A program made the translations under genes and the position numbers. Under the pieces are notes generated by a model that worked only from the letters and a program-made list of their open reading frames with translations, was not told where the DNA came from and made no database searches. This document shows, piece after piece, positions 3,878 through 29,538 of a DNA stretch of 33,682 nt. Numbering within the stretch: the first letter of the stretch is position 1; the number at the start of each line of letters is the position of its first letter. The DNA comes from a virus. The stretch spans positions 1 to 33,682 of the IMG/VR virus record IMGVR_UViG_3300033182_001240. One strand, written 5' to 3'.

Positions 3878-4315
3878 TCATCGGCTTTTCGGAAACAAAA
3901 AGGCGAATGCAACCCGTCGCCGCCAGGCTTGGGTCAGCGGTTCTTCGATCACGCCGAGCCGTTCATAGGCATGGATGAAGGTGCTCGCCTCCGTAAGAAT
4001 ACCGACATGCTTGGCGATGGCGTGAGGTCGCATGCGAAACAGCAGCAATGTGCCGGGGCCGGCATCGTGCGGATCCATCTCAATCATCATCCTCCGGGCC
4101 CCTTCTGCTAGCACCTCCCGCGGCCCGGTCTCGCCCCAGTCACGACTGTAGGGCGGAATAGGAAACGGCTCTGGCCCGACGACCTCCCGCCAGACACCGC
4201 GCGCGAGTCCGAGGCAATCACAGCCCACGCCGCGCAGGCTCGCCTGGTCGTGATAGGGCGTGCCGATCCAGGACAGCGCCACCTCGATGACCACCTCGGC
4301 CTGTACCGGTCTCAA
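3878..4315 (-). CDS. NlpC/P60 family cell-wall peptidase, tail-associated (GTA g14-like)
   Basis: A 145-residue protein. Papain-like NlpC/P60 features are visible: catalytic Cys34 in GVGCDCLGLA, His103 in AKHVGIL, and a third polar residue, probably His115 in FIHAY. The family cleaves peptidoglycan cross-links and in GTA and siphophage tails opens the cell wall during DNA delivery. Its ATG at 4315 overlaps the stop of the DUF2163 gene (ATGA), indicating translational coupling. In related phages the next gene is megatron; here that gene starts 1.07 kb away beyond an insertion. Confidence 0.9.
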   Translation of the reverse strand: MRPVQAEVVIEVALSWIGTPYHDQASLRGVGCDCLGLARGVWREVVGPEPFPIPPYSRDWGETGPREVLAEGARRMMIEMDPHDAGPGTLLLFRMRPHAIAKHVGILTEASTFIHAYERLGVIEEPLTQAWRRRVAFAFLFPKSR

Positions 4316-5196
4316 AGCACATCTCCATCATGCCCGCCGTCCCGCGACGCATAGCGGATCACAGCATCTTGCCCCGGGATATGGGGGAAGCCGCGGAAGT
4401 TCGCGGTGTTGTTGAACTTGGCCCCGCAGGTCTCGAGGCGCTTGTCGCAGCCCGCGCGGATCACGAAGGCGTCGCCCTCAGCGATCGCGCGCACCGGCGT
4501 TTCCATAAATGTCAGCGATACCACGCCGCCCGATATGCTGTGGCTGGCCAATTCTGCCGTGCGGCCCAAATTCGCGCCACTTTGCCAGTCCAGCGTTCCG
4601 AAGGTGAAAACCCCCACCTCGTAAGCTCCGATCCCTGTAACGGACACTACCCGATCATTCAGAAGGTCCAGCACCGTTCCTGCCCCGGAATAGACCACGC
4701 TATTGAGATTGACCCCACAGCGTGTATCCCCAAGCGCCGCATCGCAGGTGCCTTGAAACGTCCGCCCCACGGTCTGACCGAGAACGTGCGCGAGCGAACG
4801 GACCTCGGCCACGAAGGCCAGCCGCCCGCGGCGGATCTGTCCGATCGCCCCGCGCCGCATCAGAACGCGCTGGCTGGTGTCGGCCCAGTTGACGCGCCAG
4901 AGCTCCACGGTGGCATTGTCCCAGAGCCCATCGGCAATGTCGGTCTCGGTGATCTTGTCCGAGCTCAGCACGCCTTCGGCATCCTGGGCATCGACCGACA
5001 GATCCGTGCCCGAGCGGATCTCGGAGGCCGTCAGACCGCTCTCCGGCTCGAAGTCGGTGCCGTCGAAGCTGAGCGTCCGGTCGTGATCGGTGAAGCCGAA
5101 CATCAGCCCGTCTGAACGGGTGATCCGCCAACACCAGGCTAGCGTGGTGGTGCCCTCGTCGAGATGGGTCTGCAGCGCGGGCGAGAGGGATTTCAT
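4312..5196 (-). CDS. DUF2163 family baseplate hub protein (GTA g13-like)
   Basis: A 294-residue protein (MKSLSPALQTHLDEG...) with the N-terminal pattern of DUF2163/TIGR02218, including a WCWRITRSDG strand, FGFTDHDRTL and a conserved C-terminal part with AGCDKRLETCGAKFNN and FRGFPHIPGQD. The Cys residues in GTCDAALGDTRCG and AGCDKRLETCG are typical of the family, which binds an iron-sulfur cluster in structurally characterised GTA particles. It forms part of the baseplate hub. The start overlaps the upstream spanin-like gene and the end overlaps the NlpC/P60 start, each by four bases. Confidence 0.92.
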   Translation of the reverse strand: MKSLSPALQTHLDEGTTTLAWCWRITRSDGLMFGFTDHDRTLSFDGTDFEPESGLTASEIRSGTDLSVDAQDAEGVLSSDKITETDIADGLWDNATVELWRVNWADTSQRVLMRRGAIGQIRRGRLAFVAEVRSLAHVLGQTVGRTFQGTCDAALGDTRCGVNLNSVVYSGAGTVLDLLNDRVVSVTGIGAYEVGVFTFGTLDWQSGANLGRTAELASHSISGGVVSLTFMETPVRAIAEGDAFVIRAGCDKRLETCGAKFNNTANFRGFPHIPGQDAVIRYASRDGGHDGDVL

Positions 5197-5779: not shown

Positions 5780-6481
5780 TCAGCGCTCCCGTTTGCTGGT
5801 GAACAAGTAAGACAGAAGCCGGGCCCAAAACCCGCGGTCACGCCTGGGCGCCGCGACAACGCCGTCGCGTGGAGGCAGCGCTGTGGGCTGTTCGGGACGG
5901 GGCGTCGGCCGTGGGCGATCCGTTTCAGCACGCAGCAGGACCAGCGACTCAACCTCCGTCAGGCTCCTGATCGGCCGCGCCAGTTGCAACCGTCCGGCCT
6001 CATCGACACCCCAGACCGGAATGGCGCCTGCACCGTAGCGGCCGTGGAGGAACAGGTCTCGCTCGGCTTCTCGCCGGGGAATAATTGCTGCCAGCCGGCG
6101 CCAGTTCAAAAACGCGTTGGCGGCTGCAACGCGATTGCCGGCGTTGAGATGCCGCGTCAGTGCCGCCCGCGCAATGCCGCCTGTGTTGTAATGAAAGCTA
6201 ACCAGCGCATCGAACTCGTGTGGCTCAAGCGGCACCTTCACCGCGCGGCGCACATCGGCCTCGTAGCGCGCCAGGTCCTTGCGGAAGAGCGCAAAGGCTT
6301 CTCGAATGCCGTCCTCGAGATCTGCGGGCATGCCGCGGGACATCTTGGCCGGATCAGGGTCCCCGGCTGCCGCTGTGTGGCCAATGCCGAAGGTCCAGAC
6401 GTTTTTGACATCAAGGTAGGGTCCGGGCACGACGCCTTCGTGCCGGACGAGGGCAATCAGCCCCCGATCGGTGGTTTGCAT
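5780..6481 (-). CDS. Endolysin, GH24 (T4-lysozyme-type) muramidase with C-terminal extension
   Basis: A 233-residue protein. The GH24 catalytic triad is visible: Glu in LVRHEG, Asp in PGPYLDV and Thr in WTFGIGHT; FHYNTGG and NAFLNWRR also match the family. It hydrolyses the glycan backbone of peptidoglycan at lysis. No signal peptide is seen, so a holin is expected to release it. The last ~70 residues are Pro/Arg-rich and end in an amphipathic FWARLLSYLF segment plus basic tail, unusual for plain lysozymes and perhaps membrane-interacting. AAAGGAAAA lies just upstream of the ATG. Confidence 0.9.
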   Translation of the reverse strand: MQTTDRGLIALVRHEGVVPGPYLDVKNVWTFGIGHTAAAGDPDPAKMSRGMPADLEDGIREAFALFRKDLARYEADVRRAVKVPLEPHEFDALVSFHYNTGGIARAALTRHLNAGNRVAAANAFLNWRRLAAIIPRREAERDLFLHGRYGAGAIPVWGVDEAGRLQLARPIRSLTEVESLVLLRAETDRPRPTPRPEQPTALPPRDGVVAAPRRDRGFWARLLSYLFTSKRER

Positions 6482-6510: not shown

Positions 6511-6798
6511 TCAGCGCTGCTGGTGCAGGCGTTCGAGATCTTCGGTCAGCGCCTCGAGCCGGGCGACGATCCCGGCAATGCGCACATCGATGACCGCGAG
6601 GCGGCGGTCGGCGTCGACGATCTGGCGGTGGTATTCCGGGGATGCGGCCTGAAGACTGGAAACCCGTTCCTCAAGCGAGGTGACGCGGGTGTTCTGCGTC
6701 CCGGCCCACCAGATGGCGGCCCCACCTTGGGCAGACAGAGCCAGCGCAAGGCCAAGATAGGCGACGAGCGTGCCATTGGAGATCGGGCTGTCAGCCAT
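6511..6798 (-). CDS. Small membrane-anchored coiled-coil protein of the lysis region
   Basis: A 95-residue protein from the ATG at 6798, overlapping the heme-oxygenase-like stop by eight bases (ATGGCTGA). It has an N-terminal transmembrane segment (LVAYLGLALALSAQGGAAIWW) and a long heptad-rich helix (TSLEERVSSL, then ADRRLAVIDVRIAGIVARLEA and LTEDLERLHQQ). Such proteins next to endolysins may act in lysis control or as holin or spanin accessories. No named family is recognised. Confidence 0.75.
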   Translation of the reverse strand: MADSPISNGTLVAYLGLALALSAQGGAAIWWAGTQNTRVTSLEERVSSLQAASPEYHRQIVDADRRLAVIDVRIAGIVARLEALTEDLERLHQQR

Positions 6799-7360
6799 GG
6801 GCCCCTCCAACTTGCCGGGCCATATCTGCCTCTGCCTCTGCCTCTGCCTCAGCCCTGGCCAGCCCGCCCCGCTCGATCTCATCCATGACACCAAGCAGGC
6901 AGGCGAAGGCGACGCGCGCCGCCTGCACAAGCTCGCCGCGCGCGCGCATCTGACAGACCCAATCACGCACCTGGTCCGGATGCCGATAGCAGACGTGGCC
7001 CGTTGGCAGCCCGCGCTTGGCCATTTTGGGGGCCAGGACCCGCCCGCCGGAGACATGGGCCCCGTGGAGCACATAAGCGAGGCCCATGCGGGCTTGGACC
7101 GTATCGAGGTCATCCAGCGTGGCCTGCGCCGTCGGGGATCGGCGCACGCTTGGCAGCACGGACAAATCGGCTCGGAACAACAGATCCCGCCGCATGTGCT
7201 CCGGCAGCAGCCCATCCGCGCCCCAGTGCAACATCTGCAGCGCCTGCAGCCAATAAGCCCATTCCAACCGCGTGATGGCCCCGGTTGCCATCTTCTGACC
7301 CACTGGGTGCTCCTCGCAGGCGTGGTGATACTCGCGTGTCGATGCATAGAGGTTGCTCAT
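6791..7360 (-). CDS. Heme-oxygenase-like protein
   Basis: A 189-residue, mostly helical protein. Its first helix (STREYHHACEEHPVG) lines up with the proximal-histidine helix of heme oxygenases (EVHTQAEN in human HO-1), placing His12 at the heme-ligand position. KMATGAITRLEWAYWLQAL matches the next helix. The stretch YVLHGAHVSGGRVLAPKMAK matches the distal helix with its GDLSGGQVL signature, here with SGG at 104-106. The C-terminal helix VQAARVAFACLLGVMDEIER also fits. Canonical members degrade heme to biliverdin, CO and iron; the wider fold includes non-heme enzymes and binding proteins, so activity is inference. The C-terminus is an odd EAEAEAEA run. The start overlaps the DUF4376 gene (ATGA), so it is co-translated with tail and lysis genes. 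Confidence 0.7.
   Translation of the reverse strand: MSNLYASTREYHHACEEHPVGQKMATGAITRLEWAYWLQALQMLHWGADGLLPEHMRRDLLFRADLSVLPSVRRSPTAQATLDDLDTVQARMGLAYVLHGAHVSGGRVLAPKMAKRGLPTGHVCYRHPDQVRDWVCQMRARGELVQAARVAFACLLGVMDEIERGGLARAEAEAEAEADMARQVGGAHG
6825..6854 (-). repeat. Hexanucleotide tandem repeat encoding an Ala-Glu run
   Basis: Four exact copies of TCTGCC (plus strand, 6825-6848) and a fifth degenerate unit, TCAGCC. On the minus strand it encodes alternating Glu-Ala near the C-terminus of the heme-oxygenase-like protein. Being in units of six it can expand or contract without changing frame. Confidence 0.9.
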
Positions 7361-7959
7361 GCGATGATCCCCTGCGCCCGGGCCTCAGCCTCATAGGCAG
7401 CTTCAAACGCCGCGACCGGGTCGAACCCCTCCAACTCTCTGGCCTCAGCCAGTGCATCCATCTCTTCCGCGATCCGCTTTTCCAGCGCGAAGCACAGCGT
7501 GACATGCGCGGTGACCGCCGCGGCGATCTCCACGACCTGCTCGCGGGTCAGTTGCAGGAAGCCGTCTGGCGTTTTCCACTCGATCTGCGTCGGCACATTG
7601 CCTGCGAGGTACTGCCCGGTGAAGTTGCCGAGCTTGTTTTGGGTGGCTGCGTCCGTGCGCACCGCAATCCCGTTTGGCATGCGGAACCCGCCGACCTCGC
7701 GCTGCCACCGGTGGTAGGCCAGCCGCCCAAGCGGATCTCGCGGGATCGCGCGGGCGGCACGCAGTGCCCCCTCCAGACCGGCCTCGATCTCCGCGAGGCG
7801 CGCGGCAAACACAGCGGCCTCCTCGAACACCTCTAGCACTTCCTTGCCCGTGCTGACCTCAGCGCCCGCATAGACCCGCCCCTTGGCGATGCCTGGCCCA
7901 TAGGCAATCCACCAGGCGTCGGCCTCTGCCGTGAACCGTCGTGTGTGAATGATCGTCAT
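7357..7959 (-). CDS. DUF4376 domain protein, tail-fibre accessory type
   Basis: A 200-residue protein from the ATG at 7959, overlapping the stop of the repeat protein (ATGA). The C-terminal half has the DUF4376 pattern: YHRWQREVGGFRMPNG, RTDAATQNKLGNFTG, IEWKTPDGFLQLTREQ and AVTAHVTLCFALEKRI. This domain occurs in many prophages directly after tail-fibre genes and is thought to be a fibre accessory or assembly protein; its biochemical role is unknown. The N-terminal part starts MTIIHTRRFTAEAD. Confidence 0.8.
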   Translation of the reverse strand: MTIIHTRRFTAEADAWWIAYGPGIAKGRVYAGAEVSTGKEVLEVFEEAAVFAARLAEIEAGLEGALRAARAIPRDPLGRLAYHRWQREVGGFRMPNGIAVRTDAATQNKLGNFTGQYLAGNVPTQIEWKTPDGFLQLTREQVVEIAAAVTAHVTLCFALEKRIAEEMDALAEARELEGFDPVAAFEAAYEAEARAQGIIA

Positions 7960-10613
7960 AGCGGTGCATCTCCCGTGATGGTCCATCCCGCGCCTGCGAG
8001 CGTCAGCGTAGCGGTGGCCAGCACGCCGTCCCATGACGTCCCGCGCACCGGCGTGCCGGTCGTGGTGCCCCCCGTGGCGCGCGTCGTGCCAAGCGCGTCG
8101 AGCAGGACCCAGGCCCCGCTGAGACGCAGGAAGCGCCAGCCATTGGGCGCGACATAGGTCAGCGTGGCGGGCTGATAGCTGTAGGTCTGGTTGGCCGCAG
8201 CCTCGGATGCGCCGGTGACTGCTACAGCCAGCGGGGCTGTCAGGAAGGCGCGTGCGGCGGGGGCATTGGCAAAGGCCTCGCCCGGCGCATGGTCGAGCGC
8301 GTCGTAGAGTTTCGGCACCGATGTCGTATCGGTGGCCTGGAACACCGCATCAACAGGCCCGCCGAGCATCCTGATCCGGTTGGCCCATCCGATCAGCGTC
8401 CGAGCATAGTTCTCCGGAGACCATGACCCGGTCCGATGCCCGAAATCCCGCAGATCGACGCCGTCTGGATTGAGACCCCAAGCCGCCAGAGAGCGGTCAA
8501 AGCTGTTGGCCTCTTCCAGCATGGACTCCATGGTGATGGCAGAGGACACGTCCCAACCGCTGAGGTCCCGGTCGAAGGCCCCTGCACGAAACAGCATGAA
8601 GGAAAAATCCCGCCCCGAAGACACATCCCATCCGGAGATGTCGTCGTTGAAGGCAAAGCAGCGATAGAACATGTCCTTGAAATTGGTGCAGGCGCTCGGT
8701 TGCCAGGTGGAAAGCTGGATCGCGCCGAGCGCACCGGTATTGACGAACATGCCGCTCATGTCCCGCACATTGCGGACATCCCAGCTCCGCAGATCCCCGC
8801 GGTAATCCGTGGAGGCGAACATCTCGTGCATGTCGGTCACATTGCGGACATCCCACTGGCTCAGATCACCATCATAGCTGCCCTTGCTGGAAAACATCTC
8901 GCGCATCGAGGTGACATTGCTGACATCCCAGGTGTTGAGGTCACCCTGAAAGGCCGTTGTGGCATGGAAGGCCCGGTAGAGATCCGTGGCGCCGGAGACG
9001 TCCCACCCGCTGAGGTCCTGATTGAAGGTCGAGGCGCGGGCAAAGACCTGGCGGAAATTCGTGCAAGCGGAGGTGTCCCATGCCCCGATGGGCCGGTTGA
9101 AGGCGGTGTTAGCCCAGAACATGCGCTCCATGGTCTGGACTGCGGTTGTGTCCCATCCGGTGATGTCGGGATTGGCCGGGCTTTCGATCAGGCCGGGATG
9201 GCCGGCAAACATCAGCGCCATGTTGGTGACGCGGCCGACGTCCCAATTGGCAATCGAGCTATTGTTGAAGCTGCTGCGGTAGAACAGGCCTTCCATATTA
9301 GTGATGCGCGCGGTGTCCCATCCGCTCAGATCGCCGTTGAAATCGGCGATGTGGAACATGCGGGAGATGTTGGTGACATTGGCCAGATCGAGTGCAGAGA
9401 GATCGACGCCGATATTGGCTTCCTCGAAAAGGCCCGACAGATCGATGACCTGCGGTGGGATCTTTGCGTTGATCACCGAGAGGTTGGGCGAGGTCCGCAT
9501 CAGCGCTCGGCGCAGCGAGATCAGCCCGAGCTTGAAGCCGAAACTGTCAACGCGCAGGAGGCCAGTCTGATCCACGTCACCGCCGTAATGGGTCAGGTCC
9601 CCGGAGATGGTGACCGTGACCGGGTCGGTCACGCTGCCGGCGTATTGGTGGCTGCGGCTGCCGCGTGAGGTGAAGGTCTCGGTTTGCCCATCGCCCCAAT
9701 CCACAGTGACGTTTACCGTCGCAGTACTGCTTTCCAGGCCCAGGGGCAGATGGATGGTGCGGTTGATGGCGAGGTTGGGATCATAGACCAGCACGATCGA
9801 GGCGGCGCCGTTGAACACCGATGCCAGCTCGGTCCAGTCGGTATAGGTGATGGCGCCGGCCTGGTTGGGCCGGCCACCATAGCGGGCGCGCCAGAGATAC
9901 TCCTGGCCTTCGGCGAGGCTCGACGGGATGGTGACCGAGGCGCCGGTCAGGTCTGTGACGGTCTCGATGGGCGTATTGGTATCGCCCGGCAGGAAGAATT
10001 CGACCTGCGTTTCCACATAGAGGAACCCGAAGGCGGACTCGAAGGGCGTGATGTCGACGGTGCCGGAGGTGATGCCATCGCGGGTAACCGGCATCGGGAT
10101 GGTGATGAAGTCGGGATAGACCTGTTTGAACGGGGTCGAGAAATCCGACTGCTGGCCCTCGGTGCCGTAGTAGAGCGCGCGCCACCAGAACTCCTGGCCG
10201 GGCACCAGCCCGTCTTCGGGGAAGAGCGTGGTGTAGCTGCTGACTTCGCCGGTCAGGGTCTTGGTGAAAAGCGGCGCGTCAAATCCGCTCTCACTTGCGG
10301 CGACCTCGAAGAGCGCGCCGACCTGGCTGAGGCCTGCGGGGCTGTAGAACTGCGTGAGCCGCAGCTGCATCTGCTCAAAGGCTGTGGTCGGCACGAGGGC
10401 CGAGGGGCGTGCGATGATCACATCCTCGGAGGGCACGACCCAGTCGACACCGTCGCTGTAGTAGAACTGGCGATCATTGCCATAGGCCATGGCGCCTTCG
10501 AACAGCGCCGGGTCGAAATCGTTGTCGATCGGCGCGGTGATGGGCAGCAAGGGGCCAGCGGTCACGCTGCGGCCGGAGAGCAGCGGCCGGTGACCCAGGA
10601 AGCGGGTGTCCAT
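7956..10613 (-). CDS. Large tail protein with BspA/DUF285 repeats and a PKD-like domain
   Basis: An 885-residue protein from the ATG at 10613; a GTG at 10676 would add 21 residues. The N-terminus (MDTRFLGHRPLLSG) resembles that of the beta-helix tail protein upstream. Two beta-sandwich, fibronectin-like regions (ending in EFWWRALYYG and EYLWRARYGG) are followed by a PKD-like domain with VDWGDGQTETF. About twelve ~25-residue repeats then follow the DUF285 pattern, for example LSGWDVS/NWDVG plus VTNMALMF or VTSMREMF. The C-terminal ~150 residues contain NGWRFLRLSGAWVLLD. DUF285 repeats form leucine-rich-repeat-like surface adhesins, so a receptor-binding role is likely. There is no signal peptide, fitting a virion protein. 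Confidence 0.85.
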   Translation of the reverse strand: MDTRFLGHRPLLSGRSVTAGPLLPITAPIDNDFDPALFEGAMAYGNDRQFYYSDGVDWVVPSEDVIIARPSALVPTTAFEQMQLRLTQFYSPAGLSQVGALFEVAASESGFDAPLFTKTLTGEVSSYTTLFPEDGLVPGQEFWWRALYYGTEGQQSDFSTPFKQVYPDFITIPMPVTRDGITSGTVDITPFESAFGFLYVETQVEFFLPGDTNTPIETVTDLTGASVTIPSSLAEGQEYLWRARYGGRPNQAGAITYTDWTELASVFNGAASIVLVYDPNLAINRTIHLPLGLESSTATVNVTVDWGDGQTETFTSRGSRSHQYAGSVTDPVTVTISGDLTHYGGDVDQTGLLRVDSFGFKLGLISLRRALMRTSPNLSVINAKIPPQVIDLSGLFEEANIGVDLSALDLANVTNISRMFHIADFNGDLSGWDTARITNMEGLFYRSSFNNSSIANWDVGRVTNMALMFAGHPGLIESPANPDITGWDTTAVQTMERMFWANTAFNRPIGAWDTSACTNFRQVFARASTFNQDLSGWDVSGATDLYRAFHATTAFQGDLNTWDVSNVTSMREMFSSKGSYDGDLSQWDVRNVTDMHEMFASTDYRGDLRSWDVRNVRDMSGMFVNTGALGAIQLSTWQPSACTNFKDMFYRCFAFNDDISGWDVSSGRDFSFMLFRAGAFDRDLSGWDVSSAITMESMLEEANSFDRSLAAWGLNPDGVDLRDFGHRTGSWSPENYARTLIGWANRIRMLGGPVDAVFQATDTTSVPKLYDALDHAPGEAFANAPAARAFLTAPLAVAVTGASEAAANQTYSYQPATLTYVAPNGWRFLRLSGAWVLLDALGTTRATGGTTTGTPVRGTSWDGVLATATLTLAGAGWTITGDAPL
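8475..9405 (-). repeat. About twelve tandem DUF285 protein repeats
   Basis: Within the large tail protein, units of roughly 70-80 bases each encode a Trp-Asp-Val/Thr turn, a T-N/S-M segment and a conserved Met/Leu-Phe. At DNA level the tell-tale words on the plus strand are 'gacatccca' or 'gtgtcccat' recurring at about 75-base intervals. Units are diverged, so they are old rather than recent duplications. Boundaries are approximate. Confidence 0.8.
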
Positions 10614-10680
10614 GGATGGGGGCTTTCGGTTTGGAGAAAAGAAGTCACGCCCGGTCCAGTCGGACGCGCTTTGCACCGAC

Positions 10681-25891: not shown

Positions 25892-27583
25892 TCACCCCAT
25901 GTAACTCGACCTCACCGCCCGCCGGCGCGGGGTGCGCCGGCCACCGGGGACGCCGTTGGCATCCGGGCTGCGCCGCTCCACCGCCGGGGCTACTTCCAAT
26001 TGCGCGACCAGTTCCGCCCACCGCGCCTCCGGCCAGCGGTCCGCGCCGAGGATCCACGCCGCGGCCCGGGCATAGACCCGGCAATCCAGCGCCTCGTTGC
26101 GCTCGCGCAGTTTTTGCCATTCCAGCTTCTGGAACCCGCGCTTGGTTTTCACGGTCACGAGCTGCTCCGCCGTCAGCTGCTTGAGCCATTCGGCATCGGA
26201 CCAGCCCGGCAGGTGAACTAGACCTGGGGAAGTGCGTTCACCGCCTGCCGGGCTGGTCTCAGGCGGGTCCTGCCGCAAGAAACGGTAGGTTTCTGCCTTG
26301 AACGTCGAGGTTGCCACAGTCCAAAGCCGCGCGCCACGGCGAAGTCGCTTGCCCCCGATTGTCGCGTCCACATAGGTCGGCCCCGTCACCGGGCTCGCCC
26401 GGTTGAACCCCTCCACGCCCTTGACCGGCGCGACTTGTCCAAAACCCGCCTGCCGCGCCCAGGCATAGACCGCGCTGGTCTCGAACCCAGTGTCTATCGC
26501 TAGCCGCGCGATAGTCATTGCCGTTCCGTTCTCATGCACCCATGTGCGCCCGAGCAGCTCGCTGAGCCGTTGCCAGCAGGCCGGATCCGCAGGGCCGCCC
26601 TCAAGCACGACATGGTCCACAAGCCAGCTTTCCAGCCCCTTGCCCCAAGCCCAGATATCGACCTCGATCCGGTCCTTCTGCACATCGGCACCCGCTGTCA
26701 GGAACAGCCCGCGTGAAGGGACAGACTCCGCAGGCCAATCTTCCTTAAGCCCCTGCAGGCGCTGCCAATCCGGCGCCTCGCCGCTCTCCATCCAGGTCTC
26801 ACCAAGCGACGTGTTCACGAAGGTCTTCATCGCCTCGTCGCCCCCGGCCCGCGCCGACAGAAACGCCCGCGCCATCGCCTCCAGTCGCACCCAGGGCGAA
26901 TAGATCTCGTTGAGATGGAACCCGGCCGTGCCCTCAAACGGCTTTTCGGCAATCCAGCGCCCCTTTGACACCGCCGCCCATCGCGCTTCATCCCGCCACT
27001 TTGCCTCACAGGCTATGCATTCATACCGCGCAGTCTCCGGCTTGTGCCGCCCGTCCTCGGTCTTGTCCCATTTGACCTGATACCATGTCAGCACCTGCTC
27101 GGTGCCGCAGTCTGGGCATGGCACCCAGAACCGCCGCTGGTCGCTTTCCTCAAAGGCCGTCTCGATCCGGCTCGCGCCCTTGTTCGTAGGCGTCGAAACC
27201 AGCACGATCTTGCGGTTCCAGAACGTGACCGTCCGCTTCTTCGCGAGGTTGACCGGGTCACCCTCTGCGCCGGCGCTGAACGGGTAGCGGTCCACCTCGT
27301 CACAGAGAAGCAAACGGATCGGCCGGCTCGCCAGACCAGAGGGCGCGTTCGCCCCCACGATCGTCAGGTGTCCGCCCGGAAACCGCTTGTGTAGGATCTT
27401 GTTGTTGCCGTCGCGCGACTTCGGGTTGGCGATCTTGTCCTGCAGGCAGGGCGTGTCCCGCGCCATGGGAGAGAAGCGGTCCTTCGACCAGGTCTCTGCG
27501 TCCCGCTCCGTCGGCATCACCACCATGATCGGCGCCGGGTCCTGATCGATGTGATAGCCGACTGCGTTGTTGAGCATCTCCGT

Positions 27584-28817
27584 GTTATGCGTCGGGATCA
27601 TGGTCCGCCCGGCCAGATATAGCCGGTTGGGACTGTCGACCTGAATGCACCGGACCGGCACGCTGTCGATCGGTTCGACGGCGACGATCCGACGCCGCTC
27701 TGTTTCCGTGGTGCGTCGCCCTTTTCGCGATGCCAGACGCGCCCGTTTCCTCGTCAGCCGGAAGATCGGCTTGTCGTCATAAACCATGAAGGAAAACCGC
27801 GTCACCGGTTTGCCGGGGCGGCGTTCACCGTCGATCACGGCCACAGGCTGTTTGACCAGGGGCGTGTATTTGACACCGAGGCTCGCCAGCAACTCGCCAA
27901 ACCCCTCGGCCAGACGAGGATAGATCGTCGCCAACTCGCAACGTCCGCGATCATCGATATACCCATCGCTGTCCATCAAGCCTTGCAGCAGAGCCAGCCG
28001 CTGATCATGCCCGGCGCGCAGGTAGGCGGGTGGGATATGCTTGCCGGTGTTCCGCGTCTTCCGCGATTTGATCAGGCCAAGCTCACGGAGGCGCAGGCTG
28101 AACGGTTTGGCCTCGGGCAGCACTGGATCAACAGGCCGGCCATATTGCCACTGCAGACTGAACTGACGCCCGCATTCCGCGCAATTACCTTTTGCATGGC
28201 GACCGAGCACATCCATGTCATGCCCGCGGCGGCAGATGTGGTCAGGCCAGGGAAGTATCGGCTTGAGCGTCAGAATATTCGGAAACCGCTTATCCTTGGC
28301 CCTGACCTCAACCTCCATGCCGCAGGCGCGAAGGTGATCGGCGATTTCCAGATCATCCATATGGCACGTGATCTGCGAACCGTAGCTATGGCCATCCCCA
28401 AGCCAGATGCCCAACACGTAGGGCGGGATCGGCAGATCGCGGTCCGGCAGGTGTAGCGCGCCTGCCACCGGGATGGCATAGCGGTTGCGTTTCTTCGACC
28501 CAAAGTAATGCGCAGTCTCAGCAATCTCCCTCGTCGTCAGGACCATGCGATGGCCGGTCATCGAACAGATCCCCCATCGCGTGGCAGGCATGAACATCGG
28601 TATCGGACTCGACCGCCCAGAGATGGTCGGCATCGGCAATGATCGAACTGCCATCGGAGAACCGGACCCGGTAACAGGGTCGGTCCAGCATCACGTCCGT
28701 GGCCCCTGTCACGCGGCAGGGCGCGCCGGTTTCATCGAACAGCATGTCGCCCACCTGCACCTCACCCATCGTGGTCCAGCCGGTTGGCGTCGGCAGCGGC
28801 GTGTCGAGCGCGAGGGC
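27584..28817 (-). mobile_element. Class 3 intein with LAGLIDADG homing endonuclease in the terminase P-loop
   Basis: The insertion lies between GK and T of the P-loop. It starts ALALDTPLPTPTGWTTMGEV (Ala at position 1, block A) and ends with TMIPTHN, followed by Thr. Block B has His65 and Trp67 in ADADHLWAV; block F has Cys in PVRCIQVDSP. Ala1, Trp in block B, Cys in block F and Thr+1 are the W-C-T signature of class 3 inteins. Two LAGLIDADG helices are visible (PYVLGIWLGDGH; ALLQGLMDSDGYI), with a putative zinc knuckle between them (HICRRGH...NCAECG). The length is 1234 bases, one more than a multiple of three, so one extra base breaks the frame. Confidence 0.88.
28540..28600 (-). other. Frameshift position within the intein
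   Basis: The first frame is good through HLWAVES and runs to a TGA at 28518. The continuing frame is good from MVLTTREIAETAHYF onward. Removing one G from the G5 run (CCCCC on the plus strand, 28571-28575) joins them as HAMGICSMTGHRMVLTT, a natural-looking text. A homopolymer indel, real or from sequencing, is the simplest explanation. Confidence 0.75.
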
Positions 28818-28929
28818 CTTGCCCACCTGCGCACTAGACATAATGACCACATGTTCCGTGGCAGCATCGGAAATGGCCGACATGATCCCGCGCTGGTATT
28901 CCGCGCGGCTGGTCCGCCACTGCCCGGGC

Positions 28930-29538
28930 TCAGCGCTCGCTTCCGAGCTCAGCCGCCGGTTCCGGTCCGCCCAGTCGGAGATCGTCAGCTCCGGCGGCGG
29001 CGTCAGCACGGCCAGGGCCCGCTCTACCGTCCGCTTCAGGATCGGCGAGCCCGTCAGGGTCATCTTCGGTTTGGCATTGAACATCGGGCTCTGCGAGATC
29101 CTCAAGCACCTCGCAGATCGCCGCGCGGATCAGGCTCCTTGTGTCTGGGATGGTCGCTTGCTCGAAGGCCTGCGGGGCCAGCCGATCGGGCAACGACAAC
29201 AGCCGCGTGCGCAACAGCGCGAGCACTGCGATCCAGGCGGCTTCCACGTCCGCGGCGTCAATCACGCTGCCGCGTTTCTGCGCGGCTTCCATTTCCGCGA
29301 GATCGGCGCGGGCCCGGATGAAGCGCGCGCGTTCCACCGCGTAGTCCGGAGCGCCGGCCTGTGCCTGGACCGCCTGTTCGCGCAGGTAGCGCACATAGCC
29401 CCGGACCGACCCGATCAGGTCATACTGCCCCCGCGTGGCCTTTGGGATCACGCCCTCCCGGCTCAGCTGCTGCACCCGGCGCTCGGACAGGTCCAGCAGC
29501 TTGGCGATCACCGCCAGGGGTTGGGTCGCAGCAGCCAT
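28930..29538 (-). CDS. Terminase small subunit (Nu1-like)
   Basis: A 202-residue protein. The N-terminal ~55 residues form a winged-helix DNA-binding domain (PLAVIAKLLDLSERRVQQLS, then REGVIPKATRGQYDLI), followed by helices typical of Nu1-type subunits (VERARFIRARADLAEMEAAQ, WIAVLALLRTRLLSLPDRLA). It recognises the packaging site and recruits the large subunit. The last ~45 residues are Asp/Ala/Gly-rich and are read through the start of the large subunit gene in a second frame, giving an overlap of about 155 bases. The start faces the plus-strand operon across a 136-base divergent gap. Confidence 0.88.
   Translation of the reverse strand: MAAATQPLAVIAKLLDLSERRVQQLSREGVIPKATRGQYDLIGSVRGYVRYLREQAVQAQAGAPDYAVERARFIRARADLAEMEAAQKRGSVIDAADVEAAWIAVLALLRTRLLSLPDRLAPQAFEQATIPDTRSLIRAAICEVLEDLAEPDVQCQTEDDPDGLADPEADGRAGPGRADAAAGADDLRLGGPEPAAELGSER

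Follow-up and report, generated by a model that had tools for sequence, protein, structure and literature searches.

Heme oxygenases (HOs) are enzymes that open heme; those of viruses are known as pigment genes of cyanophages and pelagiphages. For pelagiphages, hemO is reported from hemO-pcyA/X-alaS cassettes (PMC11480375). The catalytic Asp140 of the HO-1 and HmuO type is not universal among HOs: plant HOs have a His at this position, and the BphO-type members of the tree discussed below have no such Asp. In soybean HO-1, Ala149-His150 occupy the positions of Gly139-Asp140 and Arg136 is missing. Here, Ala149-His150 take over the hydrogen-bond network, and both the network and the activity are kept (PMC7948506). 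In human HO-1, the Asp140His exchange significantly lowers the activity (PMC7948506). A tail-linked HO clade was not found described in the open-licence literature.

The window analysed here is the complete stretch of 33,682 nucleotides of IMG/VR record IMGVR_UViG_3300033182_001240. It belongs to a phage infecting Rhodobacterales-type bacteria and contains a heme-oxygenase-like gene within a group of tail genes.

The gene and its neighborhood

The heme-oxygenase-like gene is encoded on the minus strand, with its ATG at 7360-7358 and its stop codon at 6793-6791. An earlier note had given the correct coordinates for it, without the strand. The plus-strand reading of 6791-7360 yielded no match in searches and was rejected as the wrong strand. 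The relevant features of the window are the following:

7956..10676, minus strand: large tail protein, a 906-residue ORF of a DUF285-repeat fibre cluster (ORF list, cluster annotation)
7357..7959, minus strand: DUF4376 protein, PHROG 'tail fiber protein' (Pfam, PHROGs); the ORF list starts at 8034, the ATG at 7959 being the more likely start
6791..7360, minus strand: heme-oxygenase-like protein of 189 residues (ORF list, family profile, structure model)
6511..6798, minus strand: 95-residue protein with one membrane segment and a coiled coil, PHROG 19656 (ORF list, PHROGs)
5780..6481, minus strand: phage lysozyme (endolysin, PF00959; Pfam)
4312..5196, minus strand: baseplate hub (Phage_phiJL001_Gp84_N and BR0599; GTA g13-like; Pfam, relatives)

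Read along the minus strand, the DUF285-type fibre is followed by the DUF4376 gene, the heme-oxygenase-like gene and the gene of the membrane/coiled-coil protein, and then by the lysozyme, further small genes, the baseplate hub and NlpC/P60. The TGA that ends the DUF4376 gene and the ATG that starts the heme-oxygenase-like gene share the four bases ATGA (7357-7360). At its other end, the heme-oxygenase-like gene runs 8 bases into the gene of the 95-residue protein, across the ATG of the latter.

Two further observations concern other genes of the window. The DUF4376 family (7357-7959, minus strand) has a beta-rich N-terminal part (WIAxG..G.L..G..STG) that is confidently predicted; its fold had no significant match in the PDB. 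The large terminase (25892-29105, minus strand) is interrupted by an intein-like insert that starts with ALALDTPLPTPTGWTTMGEVQVGDM and ends with YLAGRTMIPTHN. Inside this insert the frame changes (ORFs 28518-29105 and 25892-28654), by a frameshift or an assembly error.

Relatives were collected from IMG/VR, where the window protein as query found 10 loci and searches with alignments found 120 and later 136 matching stretches. Three Rhodobacteraceae contigs and three further, more divergent copies from a family-wide genome search were added. The total comes to 127 ORF hits and 82 distinct domains, with some contigs counted repeatedly. The pattern-based searches are biased toward members with HHACE or AYVLxGAH motifs; the members reached via the neighboring DUF4376 gene are free of this bias and match the same profile strongly. 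With 160-190 residues, the tail-linked proteins are shorter than PF01126 HOs. Four family members used as queries had no match in 50,697 records of isolate phages, and the members tried had no clear PHROG.

In 37/52 loci, the start of the heme-oxygenase-like gene shares 4 bases (22 loci) or 1 base (15 loci) with the end of the gene before it, which is usually a fibre or fibre-assembly gene. Upstream lie fibre genes of the DUF285 or collagen-like kind, accompanied by genes for assembly proteins (DUF4376 or Phage_tail_APC). On the downstream side, overlaps of 4 bases (14/55 loci) and 8 bases (6/55) occur. The downstream gene itself varies, being the GTA g13-like hub in many loci and a spanin-like or coiled protein together with an M15 peptidase in others. 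The location next to a lysis cassette, as proposed in the earlier note, thus holds for this window with its lysozyme but is a local arrangement; the general association is with tail fibre and fibre-assembly genes. In IMG/VR, the DUF4376 neighbor has 19 full-length relatives, and the heme-oxygenase-like gene comes after every one of them. These are not 19 independent events, since several contigs share common ancestry. Behind more distant DUF4376 proteins the gene is not found. Of 80 hub-bearing loci, just two carry it, both of them the nearest relatives. In Rhodobacter phage RcKemmy, the minor tail gene ahead of the hub adjoins it directly. The heme-oxygenase-like gene is an accessory to the tail core.

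A beta-1,4-glycosyltransferase-like gene (PHROG 13126) lies upstream of the heme-oxygenase-like gene in one locus (L056:4414-5475, plus strand) and in several others. In several loci, it stands beside collagen-like fibre genes.

Fold and heme pocket

As a single query, the 189-residue window protein had no significant match in Pfam, PHROGs, NCBIfam or the PDB, so the resemblance to HO becomes statistical only when its relatives are included. When the profile of a 60-member alignment was compared with the PDB, human HO-1 was the best match (E 3.6e-5), followed by HO-2 and by plant and bacterial HOs (plant HO1 7eqh: E 7.9e-4). Up to E 10, nothing other than HOs was found in this search. PF01126 was matched by 40/60 members at E<=1 (best E 2.4e-5), and hhalign of the family against alphaproteobacterial PF01126 proteins gave E 4e-17 (Prob 98.8).

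The AlphaFold2 model of the window protein has a mean pLDDT of 94.1. It was superposed by VIA-align on rat HO-1 (1dvg) with Z 19.0 and an rmsd of 2.4 Å over 168 residues, and this Z exceeds the level reached by common helical bundles. The 50 structural matches listed by VIA-align are all HOs, as are the best matches from Foldseek; they share 13-21% identity with the window protein. The structure comparison called for in the earlier note thereby bears out the HO fold it had proposed. The window protein is a distant but clear relative of HO, far beyond chance.

Conservation was counted in a pooled set of 81 distinct sequences. H12, E16, M24, D49, Y96, G105, G106, R139, F152 and M159 never vary in this set, and neither does H122. 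The profile alignment against the PDB sets the register to HO-1: H12 corresponds to H25, E16 to E29, H45 to Y58, D49 to E62, R58 to R85, Y96 to Y134, L98 to R136, A101 to G139, H102 to D140, G105 to G143 and R139 to R183. The pairing of Arg139 with Arg183 comes from this profile alignment only, the MAFFT alignment having placed a gap there. For the C-terminal helix, a separate alignment plus inspection gave F152=F207 and M159=F214. The family has these features of PF01126: the proximal His with the Glu29 equivalent, the equivalents of the propionate residues Tyr134 and Arg183, and the distal glycine pair (G105-G106, Gly143-144 of HO-1). The columns mapped to the pocket, a list hand-chosen from published pocket residues (partly PMC5623701), are more conserved than random column sets (mean 0.83 vs 0.54; 0/20,000 draws). 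His13, His18, His122 and Trp37 are invariant in addition to the HO-1 set.

The earlier note had named His12 as the proximal His and an SGG motif as the distal signature, and had made their conservation in homologues decisive. His12 and both glycines are indeed invariant. The window protein does have S-G-G at 104-106, but the Ser is not conserved: S, M and R occur at similar frequencies at position 104. The actual signature is Ala-His-x-x-Gly-Gly.

Two residues of the distal network of HO-1 are replaced: Tyr58 by His45 or Gln45 (Gln in 10/81) and Arg136 by Leu98. The catalytic Asp140 is absent, with His102 in 80/81 sequences and Tyr in one. The Ala at the 139 position and the non-Asp residue at the 140 position are both nearly invariant. 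Cys15 is exchanged for Ala in 12/81. H12, E16, R139 and the GG pair are retained even by divergent members.

Possible functions

These sequences are best read as a phage-specific HO clade whose enzymes would be expressed late, bind heme and probably degrade it, a reading that we consider somewhat more likely than not. For the window protein, heme binding is likely, and opening of the heme ring is slightly favored. In this mechanism, translation would occur late in infection, together with the tail-fibre genes of the same transcription unit. His12 would bind the heme and would itself be held by Glu16, while the propionates would be held by Arg139 and Tyr96. Electrons would come from a host ferredoxin or another reductase. 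The ring would then be opened to yield biliverdin, CO and free iron, with the distal Ala101-His102 being used as in plant HOs in place of Gly-Asp. The reaction would take place in the host cytoplasm during virion assembly and would release iron from host heme or remove the heme. A supply of iron or biliverdin in late infection is possible. His102 alone is no argument against catalysis, since soybean HO-1 naturally carries Ala-His at these positions; it could, given the effect of Asp140His in human HO-1, indicate a weak or altered enzyme. What counts against this enzymatic reading is the exchange of Tyr58 and Arg136 in the distal network, and also the tight link to tail fibres, which a free metabolic gene does not need.

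No bilin reductase or ferredoxin was recognized among the annotated neighbor clusters. In one Rhodobacteraceae genome (G506; L109:7375-9151, minus strand), a divergent family member lies ~390 bases from a truncated bacteriophytochrome, which comprises PAS_2 and the start of GAF before a stop, with apparent recombinase remnants nearby. This proximity is possibly due to chance, or possibly a hint of biliverdin production. Another Rhodobacteraceae locus (L108) was considered as a bridge to cellular HOs and rejected: a phytochrome-like gene lies beside it, and it resembles an ordinary BphO.

The tail-fibre link would be accounted for if the protein were a heme-binding but non-degrading tail component in or on the fibre, for instance docking on heme-uptake receptors. 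The overlap with fibre and assembly genes across differing fibre types (DUF285 repeats, collagen-like) is in line with this, as are the 19/19 cases behind the DUF4376 gene and a heme pocket retained without the HO-1-type catalytic Asp. On the other hand, plant HOs show that catalysis is possible with Ala-His, no fusion of the heme-oxygenase-like domain to a fibre protein occurs among the 127 ORF hits, and presence in the virion is putative. A tail component of this kind is unlikely. A more specific form of it is distinctly unlikely: fibre modules of different architecture would recruit the HO fold to carry heme on the tip of the tail, for docking on a heme-uptake receptor of the host. This would be the counterpart, for heme, of the 'Ferrojan horse' proposed for iron. 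An iron supply for iron-binding fibres was also considered and found no support. The motif described for such fibres is a repeated HxH (PMC11705849), and the fibre-sized upstream proteins are without repeated HxH motifs; one 353-residue protein has two. The position directly behind fibre, Phage_tail_APC and DUF4376 genes would suit a chaperone-like accessory of fibre assembly that reuses the fold without heme, and a downstream neighbor in one locus (L058) is a relative of an L-shaped tail fibre assembly protein. However, the residues that never vary correspond to heme-pocket positions, which makes such an accessory a clearly unlikely explanation.

The remaining alternatives concern the chemistry. 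A peroxidase-like heme protein, comparable to the distal-network mutants of HO-1, would fit the nearly invariant Ala and non-Asp residues at positions 139 and 140, as the D140A mutant of human HO-1 becomes a peroxidase (PMC5623701). Oxygenase activity is, however, found in plant HOs carrying this Ala-His pair, which weakens a peroxidase-only reading of the D140 and G139 changes and leaves it improbable. A dimetal oxygenase of HO-like fold would make use of the many invariant His and carboxylate residues, with H12, E16, H18, H45, D49, H102 and H122 as the extra His and acids; moreover, the Tyr58 position is that of an iron ligand in R2 of ribonucleotide reductase (PMC5623701). It is highly improbable: His45 (Gln in 10/81) and His102 (Tyr in one) are exchanged while H12, E16, R139 and GG stay, the GG pair of the distal helix suits a porphyrin, and the structural matches listed are all HOs.

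The same gene stands directly behind tail-fibre genes in many otherwise differing phages. If active, the enzyme would be produced together with the tail; if inactive, a heme pocket would have been reused for virion building or host recognition. Either outcome would name a family that is missed by current phage annotation.

Comparison with known heme oxygenases

In a tree of 41 proteins, drawn from the tail clade, from cyanophages and from cellular HOs including HO-1 and BphO types, the tail clade forms one group (support 96/96), and the cyanophage HOs fall with cellular HO-1-type proteins. The nearest cellular relative of the tail clade is unsure because of long branches. The sequences thus point to a tail-linked clade of viral HOs, carried by many uncultured phages, that is set apart from the cyanophage HOs and departs from those of cyanophages and pelagiphages in both sequence and gene setting. 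The cyanophage HOs (ho1/hemO auxiliary genes) are likewise viral and of PF01126 fold. They differ in their GDLSGG motif and their cellular HO-1-type grouping, and three annotated cyanophage records show no overlap of the gene with a fibre gene. Two 'haem oxygenase-like' proteins of uncultured Caudovirales in BFVD (A0A6J5KN38 and A0A6J5RJ96) have the same fold (TM 0.74-0.76) and differ by an identity of 18-19%.

With the HO family as a whole (PF01126; HO-1, HmuO, plant HO1), the phage clade shares the fold across 165-168 residues and the order of the helices. Compared to HO-1, it shows Asp140 replaced by His, Gly139 by Ala, Tyr58 by His or Gln and Arg136 by Leu. The plant-type HOs (GmHO-1, AtHO1/GUN2) share the exchange of Gly-Asp for Ala-His in the distal helix (GAHVSGGRVL in the phage, FAHSAGGRMI in plants) as well as the lack of Arg136. 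This likeness of residues may be convergence. The two groups differ on the proximal side, where the His of plant HOs bonds to a backbone carbonyl (PMC7948506), while the phage clade has kept Glu16.
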